Assembly: GCA_003497505.1 (NCBI GenBank)
Contig: DNNV01000235.1
Location: 1-13,505 of the forward strand
Direction of reading: 5' to 3'
DNA from: Clostridiales bacterium
GTDB taxonomy: Bacteria > Bacillota > Clostridia > Tissierellales > Sedimentibacteraceae
DNA: 13,505 nt
The translations under genes and the position numbers were made by a program. How positions within the stretch are numbered: the first letter of the stretch is position 1; every line of letters starts with the position of its first letter. Shown one piece after another: positions 121 through 13,498 of this stretch. Below the pieces are notes generated by a model, which had not been told where the DNA came from, made no database searches, and saw only the letters and a program-made list of their open reading frames with translations.

Positions 121-627
121 TCATCTGATTATTCTCTTCATACTTACAGCTTCTTCAAAAAACTCCTTAGGATATTCAATCGTAACAACTGCCGTATGGT
201 CGTTGGCCTTTGGATTTCTTACCTTGACAACCCTGGCATTACATACGGATTTCCCGTGCCTGTCAACAGCTTCAACAATATCTCCCTCATTCGGAAGCGG
301 ATAGTATTCATACGGAAATGAAAGCAATGCATTTGTATCGCTGTATGTATAGTCCTTTATATAAATTGCCAGTCCAGGGCACGCAGCAATGCACATGCCG
401 CAGGCAATACATTTTTCAAAATCAATTTCAGGTAAATTTGTAATTGATTCTCCTATTGTAATTGCTCCCTTAGAGCATGAAGCCTCACAAGGGTTGCAGG
501 GTATCTCTTCAATACATTCAATTATCACAACAGGTCCTTTACGAAGCCGGTCATGAGACGGGAAGGCAGGGGACTTATGTAGTTCCTCAAGTGTAGGAGC
601 ACCTGTAGTTTTCAATGAATATTCCAT
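121..627 (-). CDS. 4Fe-4S dicluster protein, electron-transfer subunit of the operon's flavin dehydrogenase
   Basis: This 168-residue protein carries two cysteine sets. Cys38, Cys44, Cys47 and Cys51 form an irregular first set (C-x5-C-x2-C-x3-C). Cys73, Cys76, Cys79 and Cys83 (C-x2-C-x2-C-x3-C-P) form a canonical ferredoxin set. After about residue 100 there is a cluster-free, probably beta-rich extension ending in a short basic tail. The protein lacks a signal peptide and membrane segments, so it should be cytoplasmic. The start overlaps the end of the HcnB-like gene by 16 nt and has a good Shine-Dalgarno (GAGGTGAT three bases before ATG). It is the last gene before the operon terminator. 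By position it should pass electrons between the FAD subunits and a ferredoxin or NAD pool. Similar proteins sit beside HcnB-like oxidoreductases in other anaerobes, but the specific partner is inferred. Confidence 0.85.
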   Translation of the reverse strand: MEYSLKTTGAPTLEELHKSPAFPSHDRLRKGPVVIIECIEEIPCNPCEASCSKGAITIGESITNLPEIDFEKCIACGMCIAACPGLAIYIKDYTYSDTNALLSFPYEYYPLPNEGDIVEAVDRHGKSVCNARVVKVRNPKANDHTAVVTIEYPKEFFEEAVSMKRIIR

Positions 628-1724
628 TCAATCACCTCTTTTCCCTTCTGCAGCATTGAATCCTTGGCATCCCGGCGCCTCTGCCCAAAATAGCCGCTTC
701 TCAGAGCATTGAGATTTTCCCAGATTTCCCCGGAACGTGCGGCTGCTTCATCTTCTGTAATATAACCGAGTTCGGCCGCAACGTTTATTCCGGCAAGTCT
801 TCCTTCCTCCATTGCTGTGCTTGCTTCTTCTATTCCTGAAATATCACCTGCGATGAATATATCAGCCTGAGTTGAATGCATTTTATCATCGTGAACCGGA
901 ATGTGACCGCCCATTGCAGGAACAAAATTGAATTTGCATCCCGCAAGCCACGCCAGCTCCGAAAGAGGTGTCAACCCTGTTGCAAGGCATACCGTATCCG
1001 CTTCCAAAATACGTTCTGTTCCCGGTACCTGTTTAAACCCTGAATCAAGTTCAACAATCTCAACCGCCTCAACATGTTTAGTTCCGAAAGCGCGCTTTAT
1101 GGTATGCGAAACACAAAACGGCACTCCTGCACGGGACACCTTTGCAGTATGCACACCGTAGCCGCCTAATTTAGGTGCCGCCTCCAGGATGGCGGCGACT
1201 TCCGCACCTGCCTGCAAAAGCTGGTATGCAACAATTACTCCCACATTGCCTGAACCCAGCATAACAACCTTCCGTCCGGGCAAAACCCTGTTTACGTTAA
1301 TCATGGTCTGTGCCGCACCTGCTCCCATTACACCAGGAAGATCCCAGCCCGGAAATGCCACGGCATTTTCTGTTGCGCCTGTGGCAAGGATTATTTTTTT
1401 TGCCTTTACTATTTCACTTTTATTTCTGTTGCGCACAACCCAAAGATTATGCCCGTCCTCTATTCCGCACACTTCTCCGTTTAGCCATGTGTTTATACCG
1501 AGATTTTCGCTTTCACGCAGTAGCTCTGTACCTATATTCATACCGCGAATTCCGGCCTTATGGGCTCTTGAACCGAAAAATTTGTGTATCTGCTTGAAAA
1601 GCTGACCGCCGGGACGTGCATTTTCATCTATGAGCAAAACATCCACACCTGCCCGGCGTGCTTCAATAGCCGCCGAAAGGCCGGCAGGCCCTGCTCCCAC
1701 TATTGCTAATTCTGTTCCTATCAT
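612..1724 (-). CDS. HcnB/sarcosine-oxidase-alpha-like FAD/NAD(P) oxidoreductase subunit
   Basis: The protein has 370 residues with the two-dinucleotide-binding-domain architecture of pyridine nucleotide-disulfide oxidoreductases. The FAD Rossmann motif GAGPAG is at residues 10-15, followed by an acidic IDENARPGGQ segment near 32-41. The second motif GSGNVG is at 157-162, and the FAD-closing AGD segment is at 292-294 followed by EEASTAMEEGRLAG. HcnB-type proteins form part of multi-subunit dehydrogenases such as hydrogen cyanide synthase, opine oxidases and D-hydroxyproline dehydrogenase. In several relatives a BFD [2Fe-2S] domain forms the C-terminus; it is absent here and encoded separately at 2935-3225. 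The start overlaps the stop of the Fer2 gene by 4 nt (ATGA), indicating translational coupling. Likely role: takes electrons from the DAO-type subunit through Fe-S centres to NAD(P)+ or ferredoxin. The substrate is unknown. Confidence 0.87.
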   Translation of the reverse strand: MIGTELAIVGAGPAGLSAAIEARRAGVDVLLIDENARPGGQLFKQIHKFFGSRAHKAGIRGMNIGTELLRESENLGINTWLNGEVCGIEDGHNLWVVRNRNKSEIVKAKKIILATGATENAVAFPGWDLPGVMGAGAAQTMINVNRVLPGRKVVMLGSGNVGVIVAYQLLQAGAEVAAILEAAPKLGGYGVHTAKVSRAGVPFCVSHTIKRAFGTKHVEAVEIVELDSGFKQVPGTERILEADTVCLATGLTPLSELAWLAGCKFNFVPAMGGHIPVHDDKMHSTQADIFIAGDISGIEEASTAMEEGRLAGINVAAELGYITEDEAAARSGEIWENLNALRSGYFGQRRRDAKDSMLQKGKEVIEWNIH

Positions 1725-2047
1725 TGGCGACCCTCCTCAGACCAAATTCCCGTGCCCTGCTGTGTTGTAATTTTCATTCCTTCTCTAACCTCAGTAACAC
1801 AGGTTCGCACATTAGGTACACCGTCAACCGTCATGATGCAGTCCGTACAGCGCCCGATAGCGCAGTATATTCCCCGTGGCTTATGTTTATGGGCCGTATA
1901 GCGGTTTATAAATATATCGTTTGCAATCAGGGCTGCCGCAATCATCTCTCCTTCACGTACCATGACAGGCTTACCGTCCACAAATATCTGCACCTCTCTT
2001 GACGACCTTTCTTCTTCCAAGATAGGATGATTGGATACTCTGTTCAT
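1721..2047 (-). CDS. Fer2-type (2Fe-2S) HcnA-like electron-transfer subunit
   Basis: This small protein of 108 residues resembles the N-terminal 2Fe-2S domain (Fer2_4) of sarcosine oxidase alpha and free-standing HcnA/OoxA subunits. The ligands are Cys62, Cys67, Cys70 and Cys83, in the plant-ferredoxin-like spacing C-x4-C-x2-C-x12-C. A beta-grasp start is visible (EVQIFVDGKPVMVREGEMIAA in two strands). The start codon shares one base with the dapA stop (TAATG) and the stop overlaps the next start by 4 nt, so it is translated in step with dapA and the HcnB-like gene. It probably binds the HcnB-like subunit and carries electrons from the flavin dehydrogenase. Family assignment is firm; the physiological donor is inferred from context. 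Confidence 0.88.
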   Translation of the reverse strand: MNRVSNHPILEEERSSREVQIFVDGKPVMVREGEMIAAALIANDIFINRYTAHKHKPRGIYCAIGRCTDCIMTVDGVPNVRTCVTEVREGMKITTQQGTGIWSEEGRQ

Positions 2048-2934
2048 TATTTTACCTCCGAGATAAGCCCCAGCTCAGACATGGCATCCTTCAATGCACT
2101 GAGCACATCTTCGGAAGGTGCCGCAAGAGGCAGACGTGTAATGCCCACATCTATTCCAAGCAGATTAAGCGCTGCCTTAACAGGAATAGGGTTTGCAGTC
2201 ATAAACAGCTTTTCAGATATATCAACAAGCTTCAGATGCATTTTTGCAGCTTCATTTACATTTCCGCCCAGGTAATTGTCAATCATATACTTGATTTCAC
2301 GACACACAACGTGCGAAGTTACGGAAACAACACCATATCCTCCGACAGCCAGTGTCGGCAATATCTGAGCATCCTCCCCCGTATATACCAGGAATCCTTC
2401 TGCCGCATCACGCACTACGGCAGCTAACTGTGTAAGATTTCCTGAAGCCTCTTTCAATGCTGCAATATTCGGGATTTTAGAAAGTGCAACGGTGGTTTCA
2501 GCTGTCATATTGGCACCGGTACGTCCCGGCACGTTATAAAGCATAATAGGCAGCTCAGTTGCCTGCGCAACAGCCGCAAAATGTGCGTACAGTGATTCCT
2601 GATTAGGCTTGTTGTAATAAGGCACAACCACAAGCAATCCATCCACGCCTAATTTCTCCGCTTCTGAAGCATTCCCTATGGTAGTGGCAGTGGAATTTGT
2701 TCCTATTCCTGCTATTATCGGTACATCTACCGCTTGCTTTACACACAAAAGCAATTTTTTCTTTTCTTCAGATGTAACGGTCGGAGATTCTCCTGTTGTG
2801 CCGTTTATTACAAGCGCCGTGCTGCCTTGTGCAACTAAATGTCTTGCAAGCTCTGCTGCTCTGTCATAATTTACTTCTCCGTCAGGATGCATAGGAGTTA
2901 CCATAGCTGTGATTATTCTTCCCCAATTAGTCAT
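2047..2934 (-). CDS. dapA: 4-hydroxy-tetrahydrodipicolinate synthase (DapA family), canonical active site
   Basis: The protein has 295 residues, the normal length for this class I aldolase (TIM barrel). The family reaction condenses pyruvate with L-aspartate 4-semialdehyde. Visible active-site residues are GTTGES at 45-50 (Thr46, Thr47), Tyr107 in PYYNKP, Tyr133 and Arg138 in YNVPGRTG, the Schiff-base lysine Lys161 in ALKEASG, and NPIPVK at 248-253. Arg138, which binds the aspartate-semialdehyde carboxylate in true DapA, is kept. This argues against a pure hydroxyproline-type deaminase of the same family. The start directly abuts the BFD gene stop and the end overlaps the Fer2 gene by one base, so the aldolase is embedded in the redox genes. 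dapB and later lysine genes are absent. Direction of use, synthesis or retro-aldol cleavage, cannot be read from sequence. Confidence 0.93.
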   Translation of the reverse strand: MTNWGRIITAMVTPMHPDGEVNYDRAAELARHLVAQGSTALVINGTTGESPTVTSEEKKKLLLCVKQAVDVPIIAGIGTNSTATTIGNASEAEKLGVDGLLVVVPYYNKPNQESLYAHFAAVAQATELPIMLYNVPGRTGANMTAETTVALSKIPNIAALKEASGNLTQLAAVVRDAAEGFLVYTGEDAQILPTLAVGGYGVVSVTSHVVCREIKYMIDNYLGGNVNEAAKMHLKLVDISEKLFMTANPIPVKAALNLLGIDVGITRLPLAAPSEDVLSALKDAMSELGLISEVK

Positions 2935-3225
2935 TTATTGTTCCTCCATCAAATTGTTTTCATACTCCGTGATTAAATCAGACCTTACCGGACGCACCGG
3001 CTGCCGATAGCTGGATGTCTGCATTTCATCAAGCCGAGTATTGGTTTTTTCAGATAATATACGTTCCACAAGCCTTCTGCATGTGCGTCCTTGGCACAAG
3101 CCCATCCCGGCCCTTGTAAATCGCTTTAATTCATTCATTGTTACAGCGCCGTCTGCAATTGCAGCTTCAATTTCCTCTCGTGAAACCTCTTCACAGCGGC
3201 ATATTAATTCATCGCACATTTTCAT
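2935..3225 (-). CDS. Stand-alone BFD-type (2Fe-2S)-binding protein
   Basis: The protein has 96 residues. Cys9 and Cys11 (CRC) and Cys44 and Cys49 (C-x4-C) give the ligand pattern of the bacterioferritin-associated-ferredoxin-like (Fer2_BFD) domain, with the usual helical segment between them. Residues from about 60 on form a polar, probably disordered tail. In sarcosine oxidase alpha and many HcnB-like proteins this domain is fused to the C-terminus of the NAD/FAD subunit; here it is a separate polypeptide. The first ATG (3225) has GAGGT only 1-2 nt upstream, while the ATG at codon 3 (3219) is better spaced, so the true start may be two codons later. It is followed with no gap by dapA. A long intercistronic hairpin separates it from the transporter gene upstream. 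Confidence 0.85.
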   Translation of the reverse strand: MKMCDELICRCEEVSREEIEAAIADGAVTMNELKRFTRAGMGLCQGRTCRRLVERILSEKTNTRLDEMQTSSYRQPVRPVRSDLITEYENNLMEEQ

Positions 3226-3274
3226 TACCTCAAATTCTATAAATTATCCCTCTACTGTCCATGCAAAATTCAGC

Positions 3275-3314
3275 AATATTGAACATAACCGCAAGCGCAG
3301 TTACATTCAATATT
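3275..3314 (-). other. Intercistronic RNA hairpin, 18-bp stem
   Basis: In minus-strand RNA these 40 bases fold into an 18-bp stem closed by a GCUU tetraloop. The outer 9 bp (AATATTGAA / TTCAATATT) are perfect, followed by U.G and G.U wobbles, 4 bp, and 3 bp including one more wobble. On the plus strand the wobble positions become A.C mismatches, so the structure favours the operon transcript. It begins 25 nt after the transporter stop and ends 49 nt before the BFD start. There is no T-run after it, so it is not a normal terminator. A role as RNA-stability or processing element between operon halves is inferred. Confidence 0.7.
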
Positions 3315-3339
3315 ACTTATAAAGTTGTTTGTAAATAGG

Positions 3340-4818
3340 TTAATATGCCTTCAGCACAGGATTTACATTCCCTTGACTTACATATTTAGGATTAGGTGTA
3401 ACATTCTTTGTAAGCAAAGATATCACAACTATGGAAACTGCCGAAGCACACAGCGCAATTAATATGGCATTTGGACCCAAGGCACTCAGCTGAGAAAGCA
3501 CGGCGCCTACAACAATACCTACACGTGACCCCCAAGGTGTCACCTTACTGTTTTTCTTACCCATAGTAGGTCCTACACCTGTTTCCTCTTTCCACAGAAG
3601 CCCGATTACCAGCAATGGTACCAATCCGGCTCCCGCCATTGAATAGGCTTTGGAGAACAGGCTCATTATTGAGCCTGCATATATACCACCTAATGCTGCA
3701 AGTGCACCTATGCAAACTGTCAAAATTCGTGTAAGTTTTATCATCTGCTTGTCATTCAAATCTGTCTTGAATGTTCTCACTAAGTCATTTGAAATAAGTA
3801 TTGCAGCTGAATTAAGATTAGAGTCAGCTGAAGACATGCCGGCTGCTAATATCAGTACAAACAGCATAACTGTAACTATGAGCGGAACTTCATTCAGCAT
3901 GAACCATGACATTGCCTGATTCTGAGTTAAATCCTGGTTTATGGTAAGAATAATCAATCCCACTATTGCGGTACAAATGGTCATAATAATTGCAACAGAC
4001 CCTCCGTAAAGCATGGACCTTCTTGCTGTCTTTGGCCCCTTTGCAGCAAAGCACGGCTGCCAGTATATCTGAGCAACAAGAATACCAACGCATCCTGTAA
4101 CAAATTTGGTAATTAAGCTTATCATATCTGTACCTGCAAAAGTAAACATCTCTGCCTTGCCTACCTCAGCAAGTCGTGCGCCCAAAACGGCAAAACTGAA
4201 ATCTATTTTTGAAAACGCAACTATGTAGAATAATGTGCCGAAAACAATGCATATCAGTCCTTGAACGAAGTCCATCCACACCAGTGACAACATTCCTCCC
4301 ATGGTTGTATAAAATACGAACATAGCAGTAAAGAACAATATCACCGGAGTAGGGTTTATACCAGTGAACACACCGAAAAGCTCTCCAAACGCTTTACCCT
4401 GGCCGCCGATCCATGCTATCATAATGCATGATGCCAGCAATCCGCAAAGTGCGCGTGTTATCTTATCACGTGTTATTAAATCATCAATCATTTCCGGGAA
4501 GGTATTGTATGTCATCTTTCCTGCCATACCTGCAAAGGTCAGGGCAAATATAATTTTAGACCCCTGTTCCCCTACAATAAATACAAGCCATGGTAACCCG
4601 TTTACATACGCGCTTCCCGCATGCCCCATAAAATTCCCTACACCCATGATGTTTGCAAAGTGCGAGAAGAAAAGCAGATAAAACGGCAATGCTCCTCCGC
4701 CGATTGCATAATTGGAAAAGCTGAGTTCTGCCGTACTTTTTTGCTTTAAAGCAATAAAAAAGTAAAGAACAAACAATCCAATAGTCAATGCCCAAATAAT
4801 TATTCCTGCAGTATTCAT
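3340..4818 (-). CDS. Sodium:solute symporter family (SSS) transporter
   Basis: This is a 492-residue integral membrane protein, about 13 hydrophobic segments, the size and layout of the PutP/PanF-type sodium symporters. Family landmarks are the GGMLSLVWMDFVQG segment near 174-187, the cytoplasmic loop QPCFAAKGPKTARRSMLYG near 254-272, and AAGMSSADSNLNSAA near 325-339, which includes the Ser-Ser/Asp region of the sodium site. The ATG has a strong Shine-Dalgarno (AAGGAG about 8 nt upstream). It should bring an organic anion or amino-acid-like solute into the cell with Na+. SSS substrates range over proline, pantothenate, sugars and carboxylates, and the sequence alone does not say which. Lying between the DAO-type dehydrogenase and the Fe-S genes, it most likely imports the dehydrogenase's substrate, which would make the operon catabolic. 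Confidence 0.9.
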   Translation of the reverse strand: MNTAGIIIWALTIGLFVLYFFIALKQKSTAELSFSNYAIGGGALPFYLLFFSHFANIMGVGNFMGHAGSAYVNGLPWLVFIVGEQGSKIIFALTFAGMAGKMTYNTFPEMIDDLITRDKITRALCGLLASCIMIAWIGGQGKAFGELFGVFTGINPTPVILFFTAMFVFYTTMGGMLSLVWMDFVQGLICIVFGTLFYIVAFSKIDFSFAVLGARLAEVGKAEMFTFAGTDMISLITKFVTGCVGILVAQIYWQPCFAAKGPKTARRSMLYGGSVAIIMTICTAIVGLIILTINQDLTQNQAMSWFMLNEVPLIVTVMLFVLILAAGMSSADSNLNSAAILISNDLVRTFKTDLNDKQMIKLTRILTVCIGALAALGGIYAGSIMSLFSKAYSMAGAGLVPLLVIGLLWKEETGVGPTMGKKNSKVTPWGSRVGIVVGAVLSQLSALGPNAILIALCASAVSIVVISLLTKNVTPNPKYVSQGNVNPVLKAY

Positions 4819-4848
4819 ACTCCATCTCCTTTTAATTTTTTATAACAG

Positions 4849-4863
4849 GCGATCAATAATCGC
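4849..4863 (-). other. Small intercistronic hairpin before the symporter gene
   Basis: GCGAT / ATCGC form a 5-bp stem with a 5-nt loop in the 64-nt gap between the DAO-type gene and the symporter gene. Flanking ACAG / CTGT can add an outer stem with a bulge. No T-run follows, so it is not a terminator. It may be chance or a minor processing site. Confidence 0.3.
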
Positions 4864-4882
4864 TCTATTTTCCTGTCACTGT

Positions 4883-6067
4883 TCATACTTCCGCCACAGC
4901 GGAAGAAAATCTCCTAAGGTTTAGTTCTTCAAATCTTTTATGGTCCCCTATACCGCATATCATTTCTGACACCGATTTCCCGGTAATCGGCGAAAGAGCC
5001 ACTCCGTCTCCTTCATGTCCTGCAGCTATAAATAAACCCGGAAATCCGTCAACAGCACCTATAATAGGGCTTCCGTCTTCTGTACCAGGCCTGAATCCTG
5101 CCATTGTGCGGATTATATTTACATTGTTCATAACCGGGAAATATATGCGTGCCTGTTCTAAAATCCTTGAAAGTGCATTGAAGCTCGTTGCTTTATCAAA
5201 TCCTGCATTTTCACGTGTGCTGCCTATGAGGTAATTGCCTTCACCAGCACGGGTGAAAGAAAATCCCAATCCGATTTTTTTGTCATAATCACTTCTGTCA
5301 GACAGGATAGACGGGTCATGCTTTGATGCAATATAGGCTGCAGTCCAGCAATTTGTTTCTCCTATAGGTGCAATCTGTTCCGTAACCGCAAGCTGACCTT
5401 TTATCGGTGTAATCGGAATATGAATACCTATCAATTCTCCAACCTGGGCTGACCACGCACCTGCTGCAATTACAACGTTGTCGCATTCCACCTCTGTATC
5501 ATTTTGTCCTCTGACCATCCAGTGGTCTCCACGCTGCACAATTTCCAGAACAGGTGTATTTCTGAATACATCCATTCCCATCTTAAGTCCGTTGTTTAAG
5601 AACGCACGCATAAGCGTTAACGGATTTACCTGCGAATCGGATTTGCTGTATGTGGAAGCAATCATATAGCGTGCCACATGAGGCTGCTTTTTGAAAAGAG
5701 TATTCCTGTCTACGATTTCCACATCAAGCCCGCAGGAAACCTGCTTCCTGACAAAATCCTCCATGACCCTGAGCTGGATATCATTCTCTATGATTATCAT
5801 GCCTCCATGGGAATAAAAGCCTATGTCGGCATTCAATTCATCAGATAACCCGCGGTAAATTTCCAGGCTTTCCATAGCCAGTGTCAGTGCAATGCCTGGT
5901 TTTTTTGACTGCAGCAGTATCATATCGTCACATGAGCTTGAAGCTCCTCCCCCTATTTCCGCCTTTTCCAAAATGACGACGGATTTACCGGCCTTTAAGA
6001 GATAGTAAGCCGTTGCAAGCCCCATAACACCTCCGCCTATTACACAAACATCCTTTTTTAATTTCAT
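4883..6067 (-). CDS. FAD-dependent amino acid/amine dehydrogenase, DAO family (HcnC-like)
   Basis: The start is placed at the ATG at 6067: GGAGGAAATATA lies immediately before it, and the FAD motif follows at once. An in-frame ATG at 6094 would add nine residues that encode that very Shine-Dalgarno. The resulting 394-residue protein has the Rossmann FAD motif GGGVMG at residues 11-16 and an EKAEIGGGAS segment. Near the C-terminus are GFRPGTEDGSPIIG and AAGHEGDGVALSPITGK, typical of D-amino-acid, glycine and sarcosine oxidases and HcnC/OoxB-type dehydrogenases. The family oxidises a C-N bond next to a carboxylate to an imine. No signal peptide is seen. With the HcnA-, HcnB-, BFD- and 4Fe-4S-type genes it should be the catalytic subunit of an oxygen-independent dehydrogenase. 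It follows the aspartokinase gene by about 40 nt. Candidate substrates are cyclic imino acids; none is proven. Confidence 0.87.
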   Translation of the reverse strand: MKLKKDVCVIGGGVMGLATAYYLLKAGKSVVILEKAEIGGGASSSCDDMILLQSKKPGIALTLAMESLEIYRGLSDELNADIGFYSHGGMIIIENDIQLRVMEDFVRKQVSCGLDVEIVDRNTLFKKQPHVARYMIASTYSKSDSQVNPLTLMRAFLNNGLKMGMDVFRNTPVLEIVQRGDHWMVRGQNDTEVECDNVVIAAGAWSAQVGELIGIHIPITPIKGQLAVTEQIAPIGETNCWTAAYIASKHDPSILSDRSDYDKKIGLGFSFTRAGEGNYLIGSTRENAGFDKATSFNALSRILEQARIYFPVMNNVNIIRTMAGFRPGTEDGSPIIGAVDGFPGLFIAAGHEGDGVALSPITGKSVSEMICGIGDHKRFEELNLRRFSSAVAEV

Positions 6068-6107
6068 TATATTTCCTCCGTCCCCTGCCTTCACAGGTCA
6101 GTTATCG

Positions 6108-7172
6108 CTAAACATTTAAAGCAACATTTTCAAACAGCCTATGATATAAATTCTCGGCTAATACTTCAACCTGCCTTGATTCCACAAATATGTGCGCACA
6201 TAATTCATCGAAGTAACACGGTGCATCAACCTGCAGATTGCCCATTGCATTTTTTATATCCTCTTCGCCGCACCCACTGAACACCACGCTTATCAGCGAA
6301 TATTCGCCGCCCGGCGATGTACGTACCGCTCGTTCCTCTTCACCCCGGACTACAATCAGGTTATCTGACTGTTCAGGCTCAAACAAACCGCACTCCCGGA
6401 TAATGGCAATGCCAACAGGTCCTGAATCCATAACCGCATTTTTCACAAGCTTTGTACCCGCACCGGCATGAAAAGTAGAACGTACAAATACATCAAAATC
6501 ATACTTCTGTGCTTCCGCAATTGCACGTGGATGGATAACCCTTGCTCCCCAGCAGGCGAAAGCATACATGTGCTGCATATCCACATGCTCCATAAATTTA
6601 GCTCCCGGAACAACCCTCGGGTCTATAACCGCTATTCCAGGTACATCAGTAAATATATGAACAGCCTCCGCATTCATAAAACCGCCTATTACCACGGCAG
6701 AGGTGTCACTTCCTCCACGGCCCAGGGTTGTGACTTCATTGCGGACGCTTACTCCCTGAAAACCCGTCACCACTACTACTCTGCCCTCATACAGCTCGGT
6801 TTTTATAATTCTGGTATCCATATCAAATATATCCGCTCCGCCAAAAACGCCGTTAGTGACGATGCCGGCCTGTGCCGAAGTCATTGCAACCGCATTAATT
6901 CCATGCTGCACAAGGCTGTCTGCAAACACGCACGCAGAGATTACCTCGCCGCAGCTCATTAAAAGGTCCAGGGTATCTGACTTACTTTTTGTGTCTAACA
7001 GAGATATTAGAGTATCCGTAGCATACGGCTCACCCTTGCGCCCCATTGCAGAAACCACAACAATTATATTTTTTCCCGAAGCCCGCAAAGAAGCTATATG
7101 AGATATGGCACGCCTGCGCCCCTCTTCAGTTGCAACAGATGTTCCGCCGAACTTTACAACAACTATATTCAT
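6108..7172 (-). CDS. dapG: DapG-type aspartokinase with shortened regulatory region
   Basis: Catalyses ATP + L-aspartate to L-4-aspartyl phosphate + ADP. The start is set at the ATG at 7172 because MNIVVVKFGG matches the usual aspartokinase beginning and GGTGG lies five bases upstream; an ATG at 7184 (adding MVAH) has no clear Shine-Dalgarno. In the resulting 354-residue protein the catalytic motifs are intact: KFGGTSV at 7-13, VSAMGRKGEPYATDTL near 40-55 (a DapG hallmark), SCGE at 73-76, GRGGSDTSA at 152-160, TDVPG near 175-179 and DPR near 184-186. Ordinary monofunctional aspartokinases have about 400 residues with two ACT domains. Here only about 105 residues follow the catalytic domain, enough for a partial first segment and one ACT-like unit. 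Feedback inhibition is therefore probably altered. It sits 15 nt after asd. Confidence 0.9.
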   Translation of the reverse strand: MNIVVVKFGGTSVATEEGRRRAISHIASLRASGKNIIVVVSAMGRKGEPYATDTLISLLDTKSKSDTLDLLMSCGEVISACVFADSLVQHGINAVAMTSAQAGIVTNGVFGGADIFDMDTRIIKTELYEGRVVVVTGFQGVSVRNEVTTLGRGGSDTSAVVIGGFMNAEAVHIFTDVPGIAVIDPRVVPGAKFMEHVDMQHMYAFACWGARVIHPRAIAEAQKYDFDVFVRSTFHAGAGTKLVKNAVMDSGPVGIAIIRECGLFEPEQSDNLIVVRGEEERAVRTSPGGEYSLISVVFSGCGEEDIKNAMGNLQVDAPCYFDELCAHIFVESRQVEVLAENLYHRLFENVALNV

Positions 7173-7187
7173 ATGAGCCACCATCAG

Positions 7188-8198
7188 CTACATTAAGCTC
7201 ATTTCAACCATTTTTTCAGCAATTTGCACGGCATTCAGCGCTGCTCCCTTGAGCAGGTTATCCGCAACAACCCACAGGTTCAATCCGTTTTCTACGGATT
7301 TATCCAAACGAATTCTGCCTACGAACACATCATATTTATCCTTGCAGTTAATTGCCATAGGATATAATTTCTGCCCCGGATCATCTATGACTATAATTCC
7401 TTCCGACTTGCTCAACACTTCTCTCACTTTGGAAATATCAATTGGTTTTTCAGTTTCAATATTAATGGATTCACTATGACCGCGGAATACGGCAACGCGT
7501 ACTGTTGTTGGGGAAACCTTTATCGATGGGTCCAAAATTTTATGAGTTTCATTAATCATTTTCATTTCTTCTTTTGAGTAACCGTTTTCCATGAAAGTAT
7601 CAATATGCGGAATGGCATTGAAAAGAATTTGATGAGGATATACCTCATGGGTAATTTCTTCACCTCTTGCATACTGAGATGCCTGGTTTTCCAGCTCTTC
7701 AATTGCTTTTTGCCCGCTGCCGGAAACCGCCTGATATGTAGATACAACAATACGCTTAATAGTATATAAATCATGAACAGGCTTCAACGCTACAAGCATC
7801 TGTATTGTTGTACAGTTTGGATTTGCTATAATCCCATTATTGCTGCGCAGTGCCTCTGGATTAACCTCAGGTACTACCAGGGGAACACTTTCATCCATGC
7901 GCCATGTACTGGAATTGTCTATAACCTTGCATCCTTCTGATACTGCAATCGGTGCAAGCTCACGGCTTGCATCCTCTCCGGCTGAAAACAAGGCAATATC
8001 AACATCCTTGAAGGCTCCGGCCTTTGCTTCTTTTACCGCCAACGTTTTCCCGTTAAATAAAATTTCCTTTGATACATTCGCCGAAACATCCAGAGGTATT
8101 ATCTCCTTCACAGGAAACGAACGTCTCTCAAGCGTCCTGAGCATCTCCTGCCCTACTGCTCCCATTGCTCCAACAACAGCAACATTATACTTTTTCAT
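7188..8198 (-). CDS. asd: Aspartate-semialdehyde dehydrogenase
   Basis: The protein has 336 residues, the usual length. It interconverts aspartyl phosphate + NADPH and aspartate 4-semialdehyde + NADP+ + Pi in the cytoplasm. The N-terminal NADP motif is GAMGAVG (10-16). The catalytic cysteine is Cys129 in NPNCTT, Arg99 lies in the phosphate-binding STWR segment, Gln156 is in YQAVSGSG, and the general acid/base His241 is in RGHSE. The start is firm: AGGAGG lies nine bases before ATG. It is the first gene of the operon, about 95 nt downstream of the predicted transcription start. The order asd-dapG-dapA recalls the Bacillus subtilis spoVF-asd-dapG-dapA arrangement, but here three foreign genes separate dapG from dapA and no spoVF gene is present. 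The chemistry is GAPDH-like and reversible, which matters for the catabolic reading of the operon. Confidence 0.95.
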   Translation of the reverse strand: MKKYNVAVVGAMGAVGQEMLRTLERRSFPVKEIIPLDVSANVSKEILFNGKTLAVKEAKAGAFKDVDIALFSAGEDASRELAPIAVSEGCKVIDNSSTWRMDESVPLVVPEVNPEALRSNNGIIANPNCTTIQMLVALKPVHDLYTIKRIVVSTYQAVSGSGQKAIEELENQASQYARGEEITHEVYPHQILFNAIPHIDTFMENGYSKEEMKMINETHKILDPSIKVSPTTVRVAVFRGHSESINIETEKPIDISKVREVLSKSEGIIVIDDPGQKLYPMAINCKDKYDVFVGRIRLDKSVENGLNLWVVADNLLKGAALNAVQIAEKMVEMSLM

Positions 8199-8269
8199 CT
8201 TAACTCCTCCTGTTTAACTATTTACGGTACATGCACTCCCTAATGATAAGCAAGTATTCAATCTCACCT

Positions 8270-8287
8270 ACTCATCATATGATGAGT
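8270..8287. promoter_or_regulatory. Perfect 18-bp palindrome, likely operator of the asd operon
   Basis: ACTCATCATATGATGAGT reads identically on both strands. It occupies roughly +6 to +23 relative to the predicted start of the asd operon transcript, a classic repressor position. The adjacent FCD-family regulator gene (8493-9233) is the obvious candidate to bind it; that pairing is inferred from proximity. Confidence 0.7.
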
Positions 8288-8299
8288 TGTTATGTGAGC

Positions 8300-8329
8300 A
8301 TTATAATATACCTCTTTAATATTTGTCAA
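8300..8329 (-). promoter_or_regulatory. Sigma-A-type promoter of the asd operon
   Basis: On the minus strand TTGACA (8329-8324) and TATAAT (8305-8300) are separated by 18 nt; both hexamers match the consensus exactly. Transcription should start near 8293. The predicted leader is only about 95 nt, too short for a lysine riboswitch. Confidence 0.8.
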
Positions 8330-8392: not shown

Positions 8393-8420
8393 AAAAAAGG
8401 AGATCATTAAAATCCCCTTT
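8393..8420 (-). terminator. Intrinsic terminator of the FCD regulator gene
   Basis: In minus-strand RNA, AAAGGGGAU (8420-8412) pairs with AUCUCCUUU (8404-8396) through one G.U wobble across a 7-nt loop, and a run of six U (8398-8393) overlaps and follows the 3' arm. It lies about 70 nt after the regulator stop codon and separates that gene from the asd operon. Confidence 0.75.
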
Positions 8421-8492: not shown

Positions 8493-9233
8493 TTAAGGAC
8501 GCATTTCACCGCTGCTGTATTTGTTCCAATACGTCAAAACATCCTCCATCAGATTATCCATATGCTCAGCCATCAGTCTTTCCGCCTCATCCTCGTCCCT
8601 GTTCTTAATCGCATCATATATATTCATATGAGCCTTCGAATAAGGTGACTTAATCCGGCTTCTCATATACTCAAAAAGCGTTGACTGTTGTTTAAATGTC
8701 GATATTATATTATACATTGATTCCAAAATAGTATTCCCGGATGCATTTGCTATAGTGCGGTGAAACTCCAAATCTTCTTCGGCTATACTTTCACCGTTTT
8801 TCAGTTTTTCATTCTGCCTGTTAATTATTTCTTTAAGCTTCATTATACCGTCTTCGGAAATCATTCTTGCAGCTAATTTGCATGTTTCCTTTTCAATAGC
8901 CTTCCTTGCCTGAATTACCATCAAGAAATTCTCAAGTATTTCAGTAGAAATAATTTCATCTATTTTTTCCTGATGAAAATTAATTATATCTATAGTTTCA
9001 GCCTTTTTTATTGCCAATACACCCTCGGGAGTTATTACTCTGCCTTCATTCTTATATTTTTCCAAATAATCACTGTTTTCCAGCTTGGATAATATCCTTC
9101 CCACCGTTGCAATACTCACTTCTATTTTCTTTTCATTCAGTTTATTCTCAATAGCCCAGGTACCGATAGGCTTGTTGGACTCTTTAACAATTTTCAATAT
9201 TTCTATTTCTATATAATCGAGGATTTGCCTCAT
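8493..9233 (-). CDS. FCD-domain transcriptional regulator with NrpR/RNase R-type winged helix
   Basis: The start is set at the ATG at 9233, preceded by GGAGAGATAGA and directly followed by the winged-helix domain. A TTG at 9296 could extend the frame by 21 residues but would overlap the likely promoter. The 246-residue protein has an N-terminal DNA-binding domain (about 4-75) whose pattern of ILKIVKESNKPIG, SIATVGRILSKLE and GRVITPEG resembles the HTH_12 winged helix of NrpR/RNase R more than a GntR helix. The C-terminal half (about 100-240) is an all-helical FCD domain, with the metal-ligand set Asp154, His158, His202 and His224. FCD regulators sense carboxylates or sugar acids and mostly control catabolism. 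It lies next to the asd operon in the same orientation, separated by a terminator, so it probably controls that operon through the 8270-8287 palindrome. Confidence 0.82.
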   Translation of the reverse strand: MRQILDYIEIEILKIVKESNKPIGTWAIENKLNEKKIEVSIATVGRILSKLENSDYLEKYKNEGRVITPEGVLAIKKAETIDIINFHQEKIDEIISTEILENFLMVIQARKAIEKETCKLAARMISEDGIMKLKEIINRQNEKLKNGESIAEEDLEFHRTIANASGNTILESMYNIISTFKQQSTLFEYMRSRIKSPYSKAHMNIYDAIKNRDEDEAERLMAEHMDNLMEDVLTYWNKYSSGEMRP

Positions 9234-9267
9234 TCTATCTCTCCATACAATATATTCTTCTTCCCAT

Positions 9268-9296
9268 ATTATCTCATATATACTTAAATTGTACAA
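9268..9296 (-). promoter_or_regulatory. Promoter of the FCD regulator gene
   Basis: On the minus strand TTGTAC (9296-9291) and GATAAT (9273-9268) are 17 nt apart. This gives a leader of about 30 nt before the ATG at 9233, supporting that start over the upstream TTG. The -35 box lies in a 10-bp palindrome ATTGTACAAT (9288-9297). Confidence 0.5.
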
Positions 9297-9386: not shown

Positions 9387-11324
9387 TTATTTTGCTAAAG
9401 CAGCGCTTTTCCCTGCTATTCTTCCAAATACGGCGATGTCTGCCAATGCATTTCCGCCAAGTCTGTTGCTCCCATGAATTCCGCCTGTTACTTCACCTGC
9501 TGCATAAAGGCCTTTGATTAATTGTCCGTCAGCATCTACAGCCTGAGCAAATTCGTTTATTTCCACCCCACCCATTGTATGGTGAACCGTAGGCACACGT
9601 GCTCCCGCATAGTATGGTGCTGTATCAATCTTATCAGCAAATAATGTCCTGCCAAATTCGTCAGCAACAGTTCCGTCCACTGCTTTGTTGAATGTATCAA
9701 CAGCACTTACAAGGTTTGCAGGATCAACACCTATCTGAGCTGCCAGTTCTTCAAGAGTTTCGCCTTTGAACGCTCTTCCCGCTGCAACTAAATCATCAAT
9801 AGTTTCATTGAAATTGTTTTTAGTATCTCCGGAAGGATATGAATGCTTGTCAACTATAACCCACATGTAAGCATCCTTTTGCTCCATAAGAGCCTTCGTC
9901 ATAACGTCTCTTCTTGCTCCTTCGTCAACAAATCTGTTTCCTTCCTTATTAACGAATATACGGTTTTGAACTCCTTGCTCAATATTTCCGCTCAGACTTC
10001 CCGTTTTAGGATCTCCCATAGGAAGAAGCTGTATATGTTCCATTCCCACAAGTGAAGCATTAATTTCCTGAGCCATTACGATACCGTCGCCTGTAGCTCC
10101 TGTATGGTTTGTAGTCAGAGCTGCCTTCAGTGAAGGCCACGATTTGTTGTATTGCTCACGCATTTCCACATTGGCCCCAAAGCCTCCGGTTGCAAGAACA
10201 ACTCCATTATTTGCATGAAGCACTACCTTTGCGCCATTCTTTTCAGCATTGACACCTTTGACAGCGCCATCCTCTATGATGAAGCTGTTAGCTTTAGTAT
10301 CAAGCATTATTTCAATGTCGCTTTTGTTTTCTTCAATATATCCCATATATGTTTCAATATACCCTGTTCCAAGCGGTTTGACAGGTTTATGTGATCTGTT
10401 CCAAAGTGCGCCGAGAACTGTAAAAACTTCATTCTTGAATTCCATTCCGAGACCTTCAAGCCATTCAATAGCAGGAAGAGTATTTTCCGCAAATGTGTCT
10501 ATTAGGACAGGTTCCGCCACTTTATCTCCTCCATTATATGTTTGCAGCTTATGAAGTGTAGGAGAATCAAACAAAGTTGTTTTTCCTGAAGATAAATATT
10601 CATCCCATTCCTTCTTGAGTGTATCTTGCCACTCTTTAACCATCGGATCTGTTTGTTCCTCCGCCAATATTCCTTCGACAGTCTTCTTTTCAAGGTCTGT
10701 CATCTGCAAAGTCGATTGTCTGTCAGGATCTGCGGAATTGTATGCCGAGCCGGAAATAATTGTATTTCCTCCAACCTGAGGCTGTTTTTCTATAACAATA
10801 ACAGATGCTCCGTTTTGATGAGCAGACACCGCTGCTGCAAGACCTGCTCCACCGGCTCCTATTATAATTACATCTGCTGTTTTCTCAACATCTTCTGCTT
10901 TTTCATTGCTTCCTGCAATTTCTTTGCTCTTCAAAGCTGCGATATCTGCTCCGGCTTTTTCTAATGCTGCTTCTACAGCTGCCATTATACCTTTGCTTGA
11001 ATATGTCGCTCCTGAAACCATAGGGACATTAAGCGATGTGTTTTCTTTAATCTCCAGCACTATTTTTTCAACCGCCTTGTCACCAAGACCTGCTGTTTCA
11101 GTATGCACTACAGCTATATCGGTTATTTCTGTTTCAGTAACCGTAACTGTTGCTTTAATTGTTCCATGGAAGCCTTCGGCTTCTCCTTCATATGTTCCTG
11201 CTGTAAAAATTGCATTACCATCCGCTTCTCCTGCAGGTTTTTCACCTGTGTTGGTGCCGCATGCAGCCAAGCTTAAAATCATAGCCAAAGCTAAAGTTAA
11301 ACTAATTACTTTTTTCGACTTCAT
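9387..11324 (-). CDS. Flavinylated lipoprotein reductase (FMN_bind + FAD_binding_2, fumarate/urocanate-reductase-like)
   Basis: The start is at 11324: GGAGGAGAGA directly precedes ATG, and the next residues are a lipoprotein signal (lysines, hydrophobic core, LAAC with Cys22). An upstream in-frame ATG at 11372 lies within the operator. The 645-residue protein should be anchored outside the membrane. Residues about 40-125 are an FMN_bind domain with SGAT at 104-107, where Thr107 would carry covalent FMN added by an ApbE-type transferase. Residues about 150-645 are the FAD_binding_2 reductase fold: GAGGAG at 156-161, HHTMGG with His582, and GSNRLGGNAL with Arg621. No CxxCH heme motif exists, so electrons must come through flavin, as in Gram-positive extracellular reductases. 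The segment that is QAHPT-like in Shewanella fumarate reductase reads IQLLPM here, so fumarate may not be the substrate. Confidence 0.88.
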   Translation of the reverse strand: MKSKKVISLTLALAMILSLAACGTNTGEKPAGEADGNAIFTAGTYEGEAEGFHGTIKATVTVTETEITDIAVVHTETAGLGDKAVEKIVLEIKENTSLNVPMVSGATYSSKGIMAAVEAALEKAGADIAALKSKEIAGSNEKAEDVEKTADVIIIGAGGAGLAAAVSAHQNGASVIVIEKQPQVGGNTIISGSAYNSADPDRQSTLQMTDLEKKTVEGILAEEQTDPMVKEWQDTLKKEWDEYLSSGKTTLFDSPTLHKLQTYNGGDKVAEPVLIDTFAENTLPAIEWLEGLGMEFKNEVFTVLGALWNRSHKPVKPLGTGYIETYMGYIEENKSDIEIMLDTKANSFIIEDGAVKGVNAEKNGAKVVLHANNGVVLATGGFGANVEMREQYNKSWPSLKAALTTNHTGATGDGIVMAQEINASLVGMEHIQLLPMGDPKTGSLSGNIEQGVQNRIFVNKEGNRFVDEGARRDVMTKALMEQKDAYMWVIVDKHSYPSGDTKNNFNETIDDLVAAGRAFKGETLEELAAQIGVDPANLVSAVDTFNKAVDGTVADEFGRTLFADKIDTAPYYAGARVPTVHHTMGGVEINEFAQAVDADGQLIKGLYAAGEVTGGIHGSNRLGGNALADIAVFGRIAGKSAALAK

Positions 11325-11350
11325 TCTCTCCTCCAATTTTTGCTTCATAA

Positions 11351-11376
11351 TGAATGTATTCATTGAATGCATTCAT
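11351..11376. promoter_or_regulatory. Tandem palindromic operator of the TetR-family regulator
   Basis: Two 13-bp copies, TGAATGTATTCAT (11351-11363) and TGAATGCATTCAT (11364-11376), lie head to tail and differ at one base. Each contains TGAAT-N2-ATTCA, and the second is a perfect 12-bp palindrome. They begin at the end of the -10 box and cover the start of transcription of the reductase gene. The divergent TetR-family gene at 11514 is the likely binder. Confidence 0.75.
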
Positions 11377-11513: not shown

Positions 11514-12080
11514 GTGAAAGGTAGAGCTTTACAGGCACAAAGAACCAAGGAAAAAATTTATGAAACAAGTATTAATCTTTTTAAAAGCAAAGGATTTGAC
11601 AATGTAACCATACAGGATATTGCAAAATCTGCAAATATATCCGTAGGGCTATTTTATAATTATTATAAGTCTAAAAATGATATCTTGTATCAGAAATTTT
11701 TAATTGCAGATGAGGTTTTCAATAAGTTTATGGAAAACGGAATTAAAGGTGACACAATTAAGGAAAAAATTAAGAATTACATGCTTTTTTACATAGACTT
11801 CGTCATGGGTCATCCCTATGATTTTATTAAAATATTATATAACAACAATAACACCTTGTTTACGGAGGAAGGAAGAGCCATGCAGACTCTTCTGGACCCT
11901 ATTATTGAGGAAGGTTTTAAAAATAAAGAGTTAACAGTAAATATGAACGTCAATGAAGTCAACGAATACCTTTATCAGGCGATGAGGGGGCTGATATTTC
12001 ACTGGTGCCTGCATAACGGCGATTTTGATTTACACCAAAGAGCAGAAAAATACCTGGACCTGTTAATAAGTTCATTATAA
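11514..12080 (+). CDS. TetR-family transcriptional regulator
   Basis: The protein has 188 residues and begins at GTG with GGAGG ten bases upstream. Residues about 8-58 form the TetR_N helix-turn-helix: RTKEKIYETSINLFKSKGFD, then VTIQDIAKSANISVGLFYNYYKSKNDIL, which is close to the family consensus. The remaining helices (about 60-188) form the ligand-binding and dimerisation domain and do not identify a ligand. The gene is transcribed away from the flavin reductase gene, and the shared intergenic region carries two tandem TetR-type operators over the reductase promoter, so it most likely represses the reductase. It ends 35 nt from the convergent MATE gene. It looks more AT-rich than the metabolic operon. 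I see no clear terminator in the short gap downstream. Confidence 0.9.
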   Translation: MKGRALQAQRTKEKIYETSINLFKSKGFDNVTIQDIAKSANISVGLFYNYYKSKNDILYQKFLIADEVFNKFMENGIKGDTIKEKIKNYMLFYIDFVMGHPYDFIKILYNNNNTLFTEEGRAMQTLLDPIIEEGFKNKELTVNMNVNEVNEYLYQAMRGLIFHWCLHNGDFDLHQRAEKYLDLLISSL

Positions 12081-12115: not shown

Positions 12116-13498
12116 TTACGCCTTACACTCATCTTTCAATACTTTTAGCTCGCTATGGCCGCTTTCCCATTTATGGCCGTTATATCGAACCATAAAGAAA
12201 AATGTCCTGATAACCCAATCTATAACCATTGCAACCCATACACCGAACATTCCAAATCCGGCGTACTTGGATAATACAAGCCCGAAGCCTATTCTCATGG
12301 TCCACATGGAGCATACTCCCACAATCATTGTATAGCGGGCATCATTAGATGCTCTCAATGTATTCGGCAAAGTAAATGACAACGGCCATATAAAGCATGC
12401 GCATACGCTGTGAAATATTATAACCTGGCTTGCCATAGCTGCAGTTTCTTTTGATAAGTGAAATATTTTAACTATGGACGGTGTGGCAAATACTATTCCA
12501 ACATTCAAGACAATCATTGAAATATATGCATACATTAATAATTTTTTTGTATAATACCTTACCTGCTGATAATCACCGGCACCCACACACTGGCTGACTA
12601 CAGTTATCAATCCTAATCCTATTGCGGCTCCCGGAAGTATACCAAATGCTGAGACTGTATTTCCTATTGCATTTGCTGTTATGGATGCTGTCCCGAATCC
12701 TGCCACAACGCTCAGCAGCAGTATTTTACCCAGCTGAAACATGCTGTTTTCAACACCGTTTGGAACACCTATCTGCAATATATTTTTAACCATGTCCTTA
12801 TTGTACTTATATCTGAATGGACGGCTGATGCGTATTATGAGCTCCTGATTTCTTAACAGAGAAATAATTATAACGGCAGCCACTGCTCTTGAAACAAGCG
12901 TCGGAATGGCCACTCCTGCAACTCCCATGCGGAATCCATACACCAGCAATGCATTTCCCGCCACATTTATGCCGTTCATTATAAGTGAAGTCATCATTGT
13001 TACCTTTGAATTACCCATAGACCTGAAAAGTGCCGCACCGCAGTTATAAATAGCAATAAAAGGAATGCTGGCGAACACTATGAGCATGTACGTGTTGGAG
13101 TAGGATGCAACATCAGGTTCAATACCTCCGAACAGCACATTTAATATGAATCCTCTTCCAAAATACATGATTGCCATCACAACCAATGAAATCAACGTCA
13201 CAAATACAATCAGCTGTTCACCGGCCTCGCATGCTTTATCGCTGCGACTCTTTCCTATATATTGACCTGCCACAACCGCTCCTCCCGTAGCCAGAGCAGC
13301 GAAAATATTTATTAAAAGTATATTTATAGAGTCAACGAGAGATACTGCGGAAACCGCACTTTCCCCTACGCTTGCAACCATCAATGAATCGGCCATCCCT
13401 ACAGCCACAGCAAGAAGCTGTTCAATCATAAGCGGAAACAGCAGCCGCAGCAAATTCTTATCAGTAAATAAATAATCCTTATTTGATATCTTTTCCAT
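12116..13498 (-). CDS. MATE-family multidrug/organic cation efflux transporter
   Basis: The protein has 460 residues with about 12 hydrophobic segments arranged as two six-helix MatE halves, the normal size. It starts with a short polar N-terminus, then LLRLLFPLMIEQLLAVAVGMADSLMVASVGESAVSAVSLVD, the typical first MATE helices with the small-residue-rich MADSLMV turn. Members export drugs or metabolites in exchange for Na+ or H+. The ATG at 13498 is seven bases from the window edge, so its Shine-Dalgarno and promoter are not visible and an upstream in-frame start cannot be excluded. It converges with the TetR gene. Whether the TetR regulates it cannot be judged, because its promoter lies outside the window. 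Substrate unknown. Confidence 0.9.
   Translation of the reverse strand: MEKISNKDYLFTDKNLLRLLFPLMIEQLLAVAVGMADSLMVASVGESAVSAVSLVDSINILLINIFAALATGGAVVAGQYIGKSRSDKACEAGEQLIVFVTLISLVVMAIMYFGRGFILNVLFGGIEPDVASYSNTYMLIVFASIPFIAIYNCGAALFRSMGNSKVTMMTSLIMNGINVAGNALLVYGFRMGVAGVAIPTLVSRAVAAVIIISLLRNQELIIRISRPFRYKYNKDMVKNILQIGVPNGVENSMFQLGKILLLSVVAGFGTASITANAIGNTVSAFGILPGAAIGLGLITVVSQCVGAGDYQQVRYYTKKLLMYAYISMIVLNVGIVFATPSIVKIFHLSKETAAMASQVIIFHSVCACFIWPLSFTLPNTLRASNDARYTMIVGVCSMWTMRIGFGLVLSKYAGFGMFGVWVAMVIDWVIRTFFFMVRYNGHKWESGHSELKVLKDECKA

Follow-up and report, generated by a model that had tools for sequence, protein, structure and literature searches.

Hydroxyproline is degraded by gene clusters that combine a transporter, a DAO-type dehydrogenase and an enzyme of the dihydrodipicolinate synthase (DHDPS) superfamily with a subsequent semialdehyde oxidation, as described in the accessible parts of two papers (PMC4113996, PMC4575208). 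A similar arrangement is found in the 13,505-nucleotide stretch analysed here (the window; contig DNNV01000235.1, or C86, of the Sedimentibacteraceae assembly GCA_003497505.1). Nine head-to-tail genes occupy its minus strand from 8198 to 121, with overlaps or gaps of at most 114 bp between them: asd, an aspartokinase gene, genes for a DAO-family flavoprotein (dao), an SSS-family symporter (sss) and a BFD-like protein (bfd), dapA, and genes for HcnA-like (hcnA), HcnB-like (hcnB) and ferredoxin-like (fd) proteins. From the content and conservation of this locus, we consider it fairly probable that it is a substrate-inducible catabolic operon which would use the initial enzymes of the lysine pathway in reverse, the identity of the substrate being left aside at this level of confidence. 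In contrast to the hydroxyproline clusters, the DHDPS-superfamily enzyme is here a canonical DapA, and the place of the aldehyde dehydrogenase is taken by Asd, a phosphorylating enzyme, together with aspartokinase or, in some relatives, by an aldehyde:ferredoxin oxidoreductase. The hydroxyproline-type epimerase is also missing among the window genes searched: neither an epimerase nor a ketoglutarate semialdehyde dehydrogenase (aldehyde dehydrogenase superfamily) had a Pfam match in the nine operon genes or in the gntR, flavocytochrome-like, TetR and MATE genes of the window.

The dehydrogenases OdhABC, HcnABC and PDH1, which act on opines, D-hydroxyproline and L-proline, have homologues of their DAO beta, Pyr_redox alpha and [2Fe-2S] gamma subunits in the operon. 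The DAO-family flavoprotein (4883 to 6094; minus strand, as for all operon genes) is the presumed catalytic subunit of a flavin/Fe-S complex, and the folds nearest to its structure model are those of glycine oxidase, L-proline dehydrogenase and sarcosine oxidase. The HcnB-like FAD oxidoreductase (612 to 1724) matches Pyr_redox_2 (PF07992, 121 bits) and, under the cut-off, the soxA-alpha family (143 bits). The HcnA-like [2Fe-2S] protein (1721 to 2047; Fer2_4, PF13510, 109 bits) carries CX4CX2CX12C, in agreement with the gamma motif CX4CX2CX11-12C given for HcnABC-type complexes in the available text of PMC4575208. According to the same partial text, a second [2Fe-2S] motif, CXC-X15-20-CX4C, sits in the alpha subunit (PMC4575208), whereas here it has a 32-residue spacer (CXC-X32-C-X4-C) and lies on a separate chain, the BFD-like [2Fe-2S] protein (2935 to 3225; PF04324, 59 bits). 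The claim that the two kinds of complex work alike is independent of this second motif. Relative to the known dehydrogenases, the operon adds a gene for a ferredoxin-like protein (121 to 627; PF00037, PF12838) with two four-cysteine groups for 4Fe-4S clusters (Cys 38, 44, 47, 51 and 73, 76, 79, 83).

In Bacillus, spoVF-asd-dapG-dapA is the dipicolinate operon, in which DpaA and DpaB are encoded together with asd-dapG-dapA. The present operon likewise has asd followed by a DapG-like kinase gene, plus dapA, in a setting tied to dipicolinate chemistry, but it lacks DpaA and DpaB genes (similar ones occur elsewhere in the genome) and has instead an importer, an FCD regulator, a palindrome and flavin/Fe-S genes. 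Lysine biosynthesis operons, for their part, are marked by lysine-responsive control, dapB and genes for later steps; here neither dapB, nor spoVF, nor any other lysine gene was found among the window genes, and an Rfam scan of the window gave no match of any kind, riboswitches included. A first-pass annotation, made from the sequence of the window, had described such a gene set in one operon without dapB, spoVF or other lysine genes, and profile matches from 8198 to 121 bear this description out.

The lysine-pathway enzymes of the operon are clearly recognisable. Asd (aspartate-semialdehyde dehydrogenase; 7188 to 8198) scores 440 bits against TIGR01296 (cut-off 324) and 465 bits against PRK14874, and dapA (2047 to 2934) encodes a canonical dihydrodipicolinate synthase (TIGR00674, 312 bits against a cut-off of 206) that retains the GTTGE, YYNKP and YNVPGRTG motifs and the Schiff-base lysine motif. 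The threonine pair, the two tyrosines, the arginine of GRTG and the Schiff-base lysine, which are presumably the catalytic and aspartate semialdehyde-binding residues, are present in all 13 operon DapA sequences aligned. The DapG-like aspartokinase (6108 to 7184) matches PF00696 only, with no ACT domain recognised; its top NCBIfam match, PRK08210 (residues 5-249), is under the cut-off. The ACT domain is absent from all four operon kinases tested. The SSS-family sodium:solute symporter (3340 to 4818; PF00474, 94 bits; TIGR00813, 119.6 bits, under the cut-off of 184), a putative importer, has only weak relatives in PDB.

Recurrence of the core and exchange of the semialdehyde step

A genome search for the gene set, which the first-pass annotation had proposed, found its core (dao, sss, usually gntR, bfd, dapA, hcnA, hcnB and fd) both in Sedimentibacter and in genomes further away within the phylum (genomes, loci and contigs are designated below by our own G, L and C numbers). 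DAO orthologues of at least 76% identity are present in 10 of the 25 genomes of the genus, the genome of the window included, and two more (G002 and G003) have a form that is 50% identical. Outside the genus, we searched 249 genomes of the order (E-value 1e-90), 391 of the class (1e-80) and 398 of the phylum (1e-100), as well as 6 and 22 genomes around two of the matches, all these samples overlapping. DAO matches were obtained in G032 and G225 (order), G514 and G378 (class), and G886, G970 and G976 (phylum). The core including dapA is found in G514, G378, G886 and one locus of G970, while G032, G976 and a second locus of G970 hold paralogous sets that are dapA-free within the stretch seen.

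Besides the window, we compared 15 core loci (L007-L016, L027, L028, L049, L054 and L055). Searching with the window proteins (tblastn), we found dao, sss, bfd, dapA, hcnA, hcnB and fd all present in 12 of them; in the other three (L008, L016 and L028), a contig edge or the end of the locus truncates the set. The recurrence of this gene set is beyond chance, because DAO orthologues recur in the genus and dao has the same neighbours in other lineages.

What varies between loci is the step assigned to semialdehyde oxidation. The core is accompanied by asd and the kinase gene in L007, L009, L012, L014, L028 and L049. Neither gene occurs in the fetched stretches of L027 (G003), L054 (G886) and L055 (G970), and each of these loci carries a gene for an aldehyde:ferredoxin oxidoreductase with both the AFOR_N and the AFOR_C domain, located divergently from dao in L027 and L054 and directly behind fd in L055. 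Such an oxidoreductase could hardly replace an ATP-dependent synthesis of the semialdehyde, but can replace its oxidation; from this exchange we therefore infer a catabolic direction.

Three dapA-free sets of dao, hcnB and ferredoxin genes (L046, L056 and L057, with bfd in the last two) are found with a DctM-type transporter gene and an Asp/Glu racemase-like gene, and probably act on a different substrate. In G225, a single open frame of 576 residues (L045:12050-13780), which has dao, hcnA, hcnB and bfd as neighbours, encodes a DHDPS domain fused to a DctM transporter domain. The DAO of L014, from a Gracilibacteraceae metagenome-assembled genome (G514), is 78% identical to that of the window, its frame being broken by a stop, and 21 other genomes of the order of G514 gave no DAO match at 1e-100, which suggests transfer or mis-binning. 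Finally, a gene for a Flavin_Reduct-domain protein follows the ferredoxin gene in two distant operons (L027:2878-3384 and L049:4630-5199), and G002 and G003 have, close to the operon, an aspartate aminotransferase-like gene that scores under the model cut-off.

Promoter palindrome and regulation of neighbouring lysine genes

Upstream of asd lies a sigma-70-type promoter on the minus strand (8300 to 8329; TTGACA from 8329, an 18-nucleotide spacer and TATAAT ending at 8300), with 12 of 12 matches in a scan for promoters of this type. It is separated from gntR by a terminator-like hairpin (8396 to 8420, minus strand). Just downstream of the -10 box, at 8268 to 8289, is an operator-like palindrome, CTACTCATCA-NN-TGATGAGTAG, with 19 of 20 matches.

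We scanned 28 stretches (338 kb) for this palindrome with a threshold of at least 15 of 20 matches. It is present at the operon start in all 15 testable loci (the window and 14 others, L014 being cut in asd and so outside the count), the weakest copies being those of L015 and L055 (15 of 20 each), although the consensus was derived from the same upstream regions, so that matches there are partly by construction and the independent part is the rarity of the palindrome elsewhere. A single other site in the scan reached 15 (in L006), and mononucleotide shuffles of the whole 338 kb gave 1.45 sites with 15 matches and 0.15 with at least 16. As the palindrome also precedes the oxidoreductase gene where this gene is divergent (L027, 16 matches; L054, 17 matches), the oxidoreductase would belong to the same regulon as the operon. 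L049 has two copies of the palindrome, one in front of dao and the other at the called start of asd, a gene that probably starts further down than called. About 3 kb (3.3 kb) behind the operon of L009, a polyferredoxin gene is followed by an AFOR-family gene cut by the locus end (L009:19611-21169), with no palindrome.

The presumed regulator of the operon is a GntR-family protein with an FCD domain (8493 to 9296, minus strand; PF07729, 88 bits; PF08461, 39 bits), which would act through the palindrome as its putative operator. A relative (40-84% identity) is encoded in or beside the operon at 13 of the 15 other loci, the exceptions being L015 and the cut L016.

Relatives of the operon often adjoin dapB, ddh, lysC, dapA2 or dapH genes. 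Lysine riboswitches were searched for in 19 sources, of which 14 were operon loci. They precede dapB-ddh in L008, dapA2-dapB-lysC in L010, dapB2-lysC in L012 and dapA2-dapB-dapH in L027, and one lies behind the operon of L007, where it is cut off by the contig edge; none stands directly before the operon in any of the 14 operon loci scanned. Thus, the riboswitches found belong to neighbouring lysine genes only.

The first-pass annotation had also raised the question of whether the genome holds other copies of asd, the aspartokinase gene and dapA, as opposed to these being its only ones. Its assembly (2.54 Mb in 406 contigs, about 75% complete) does contain further copies of all three: an aspartokinase gene without ACT on C401, beside an asd copy whose product is 61% identical to that of the operon; a LysC-type aspartokinase gene with ACT on C241; and a second dapA on C186, 56% identical to the operon copy. 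The pair on C401 is convergent with DpaB- and DpaA-like genes (L002, G000:C401, 1-3251; the DpaA match is under the curated cut-off, and the DpaB-like gene has a Flavoprotein domain), and is an apparent supply pair for spore dipicolinate within the same genome.

Proposed pathway, substrate and alternative explanations

Catabolism is favoured because of the asd/kinase exchange, the shared palindrome and the restriction of riboswitches to neighbouring lysine genes, and we regard the catabolic direction as very probable. The first-pass annotation had proposed such a direction, with cleavage to pyruvate and aspartate semialdehyde and ATP formation via Asd and aspartokinase; these parts of its proposal gain independent, comparative support from the same three observations, from the ACT-less kinase and from the further gene copies. 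The symporter would import the substrate, which would also induce the operon, and the putative DAO/HcnA/HcnB/BFD/ferredoxin complex would convert it to the DapA product, dihydrodipicolinate or its hydrate 4-hydroxytetrahydrodipicolinate (HTPA). DapA, which is reversible in principle, would then act in the retro-aldol direction and release pyruvate and aspartate semialdehyde. Asd would turn the semialdehyde into aspartyl phosphate with a gain of NADPH, and the ACT-less aspartokinase would transfer the phosphate to ADP, yielding aspartate and ATP. The equilibrium constants of aspartokinase and Asd make the conversion of the semialdehyde to aspartate and ATP downhill, by about -22 kJ/mol. A gain of ATP from aspartyl phosphate is, in our view, probable. 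In the relatives with the oxidoreductase, aspartate semialdehyde would be oxidised directly to aspartate with formation of reduced ferredoxin.

The substrate needs to be one redox step away from dihydrodipicolinate or HTPA, because the core has one redox set and no aminotransferase, Ddh or DapB. We tentatively prefer dipicolinate, because its conversion to pyruvate and aspartate is redox-neutral (dipicolinate + 3 H2O -> pyruvate + aspartate). One two-electron reduction of the ring would give dihydrodipicolinate, and the ring electrons would be returned by the oxidation of the semialdehyde, as NADPH or reduced ferredoxin. Dipicolinate should be a common compound in the habitats of spore-formers, and Seyfried and Schink are said to have described its fermentation by an anaerobic coculture in 1990; the pyruvate and aspartate expected from the operon could account for the acetate, propionate, ammonia and CO2 of such a coculture. 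Dipicolinate accounts for 5-15% of the dry weight of spores, and its fermentation had not yet been resolved into an exact enzymatic pathway, according to the portion available of a 2022 paper (PMC9826295). The operon is a specific candidate for this pathway. More doubtful than dipicolinate as the substrate is the full proposal, namely that the operon represents the first known set of genes for fermenting dipicolinate anaerobically, in which the complex would be a low-potential dearomatising dipicolinate reductase, using the DAO/HcnABC family in reverse, and in which ATP would be gained from aspartyl phosphate or, with the oxidoreductase, the reduced ferredoxin spent on the ring would be regenerated.

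One part of the first-pass annotation does not stand as it was worded. It had the flavin/Fe-S dehydrogenase oxidise the imported compound to the DapA product, but with dipicolinate, which fits best, this step would be a reduction; what holds up is the catabolic, ATP-yielding use of DapA, Asd and aspartokinase.

In addition to the partly built-in palindrome matches and to the ddh neighbours discussed below, several observations weigh against the proposed pathway. Six loci (L008, L010, L011, L013, L015 and L016) have the kinase without asd. The exchange is not strictly exclusive, because L009 holds asd and the kinase gene as well as an AFOR-family gene, whose product is 26-29% identical to the other three. 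Among these three, the oxidoreductases of L027 and L055 are 53% identical, but that of L054 is only 30% identical to either and may be of a different subtype. The structure model of the operon aspartokinase is poor (predicted local distance difference test score, pLDDT, 60.9), and the search for further copies in the genome covered asd, aspartokinase and dapA. To our knowledge, no DAO/HcnABC-type complex acts as a ring reductase, those known being amine or imine dehydrogenases. In the accessible parts of the two papers on such enzymes, the relatives of established function dehydrogenate amines and imino acids (PMC4575208, PMC4113996).

The alternative that survives best, although we think it unlikely, keeps the usual oxidative direction of the DAO/HcnABC enzymes, as the first-pass annotation did: the substrate, for example 4-hydroxypiperidine-2,6-dicarboxylate or 4-hydroxydiaminopimelate, would be a different amine or imino acid that is dehydrogenated to a DapA-cleavable 4-hydroxy-2-oxo (or imino) acid. 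The glycine, proline and sarcosine enzymes among the nearest folds agree with it, as does the coupling of a DAO-superfamily with a DHDPS-superfamily enzyme in hydroxyproline breakdown (PMC4113996, in the part available). However, the surplus electrons would need a sink, and none is visible in the conserved core. Moreover, such compounds are not known to be abundant in nature.

Less likely again is diaminopimelate catabolism, in which meso-diaminopimelate from cell walls would be imported and deaminated by Ddh or DAO to tetrahydrodipicolinate. Oxidation to dihydrodipicolinate would follow, catalysed by the DAO complex or by DapB working in reverse, and then cleavage by DapA to pyruvate and aspartate semialdehyde. 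This pathway first seemed attractive because of the ddh and dapB neighbours, and oxidation is the usual direction for the DAO family. The ddh gene adjoins the operon in 8 of the 15 loci (upstream in L008, L010, L011, L013, L015 and L016, downstream in L012 and L014). Strong ddh matches are present in 8 of the 10 operon-bearing genomes of the genus against 2 of the 15 others (Fisher p 0.002), or in 8 of 12 against 2 of 13 when the diverged operons are counted (p 0.015), kinship among genomes being ignored in both tests. Read-through between ddh and operon is possible in two loci: no terminator-like hairpin lies between fd and ddh in L014 (where there is an 11-of-12 promoter), and none but the palindrome itself between ddh and the operon promoter in L008.

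The diaminopimelate route was nevertheless downgraded. The neighbouring ddh and dapB genes resemble those of lysine biosynthesis, as seen from the L008 riboswitch and from G019 and G011, where dapA-dapB-ddh-lysC clusters occur with no operon alongside. Between fd and dapB-ddh in L012 lie a terminator-like hairpin and an 11-of-12 promoter. This dapB, a second copy (L012:16865-17533), is degenerate: it still passes the dapB cut-off, but the HH and D.PSGTA residues, which the seven other copies compared retain, are gone. No ddh occurs at the loci of G378, G886 and G970, genome-wide Ddh matches are weak in G002 and G003 (E 5e-5 or worse), and ddh lies on a different contig from the operon in G013. 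The genome of the window itself gave a single weak match to a Ddh query (E 5.5e-4).

The weakest alternative, which the first-pass annotation had raised, is spore dipicolinate synthesis: Asd, kinase and DapA would make dihydrodipicolinate, and, in the mother cell, the DAO complex would take the place of DpaAB and oxidise this to dipicolinate. We keep it, as an improbable explanation, because the operon-bearing genomes carry SpoIVA and mostly SpoVAC; the expectation that they would be non-sporulating is not borne out, SpoIVA being present in all 12 of those in the genus (split matches in G006 and G012). SpoVAC is over the cut-off in 9 of these 12, with partial matches in G004 and G021 and none in G015 (the models used in the genome searches include TIGR00036, TIGR02853, TIGR02836 and TIGR02838). 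A DpaA match was called strong at E <1e-45, since none of the 25 genus genomes passes the curated cut-off and weaker matches are unspecific, all 14 control genomes giving some (over the cut-off in 1). Strong matches were found in 15 of the 25. Half of the operon-bearing genomes (6 of 12) have no strong DpaA match despite SpoIVA, 4 of these 6 with SpoVAC over the cut-off, so that sporulation without DpaA seems to occur in some operon carriers, where the operon may have a role. When only the 13 genomes with a completeness of at least 90% are considered (including G003 and G017, above 5% contamination), a strong match is missing in 3 of 6 operon-bearers against 0 of 7 others (p 0.07). In addition, the DpaAB-like contig of the genome studied carries its own asd and ACT-less kinase pair.

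On the other side, strong DpaA and the operon co-occur in the remaining 6 of the 12, the genome of the window included, compared with strong DpaA in 9 of the 13 other genomes (p 0.43 over the 25); the start site has a 12-of-12 sigma-70-type promoter with the conserved palindrome; and neither the importer nor a co-regulated aldehyde:ferredoxin oxidoreductase has an evident place in synthesis. G015, of the same genus and 97% complete, has the operon and SpoIVA, but neither a SpoVAC match nor a strong DpaA match.

If catabolic use of the operon is true, aspartyl phosphate would have to be added to the intermediates that serve substrate-level phosphorylation, and Asd plus kinase (ATP) and the oxidoreductase (ferredoxin) would be two ways to conserve the same oxidation. 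We found no description of this pathway in the literature searched, a set with few subscription papers, and a keyword search on aspartokinase in substrate-level phosphorylation gave nothing evidently on topic among titles and abstract starts.

Neighbouring genes and annotation

Routine annotation would miss such a pathway, as the DAO and HcnB-like proteins are labelled 'sarcosine oxidase subunit beta' and 'thioredoxin reductase', respectively, by the protein-search sources and asd, the kinase gene and dapA match lysine-pathway models. Proteins named after Anaerovirgula, Geosporobacter, Marinisporobacter and Natranaerovirga occur among the protein-search matches as further relatives of the DAO.

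Upstream of gntR, the window encodes a protein of 661 residues (9387 to 11372, minus strand) with FMN_bind and FAD_binding_2 domains (flavocytochrome c or fumarate reductase-like) and, by eye, a lipoprotein-like N-terminus. It has no relatives in the 15 other operon loci, and might serve as an electron sink for fumarate derived from aspartate. Further along, a gene for a TetR-family regulator (11514 to 12080, plus strand; PF00440) adjoins one for a MatE-family efflux protein (12116 to 13498, minus strand; PF01554).

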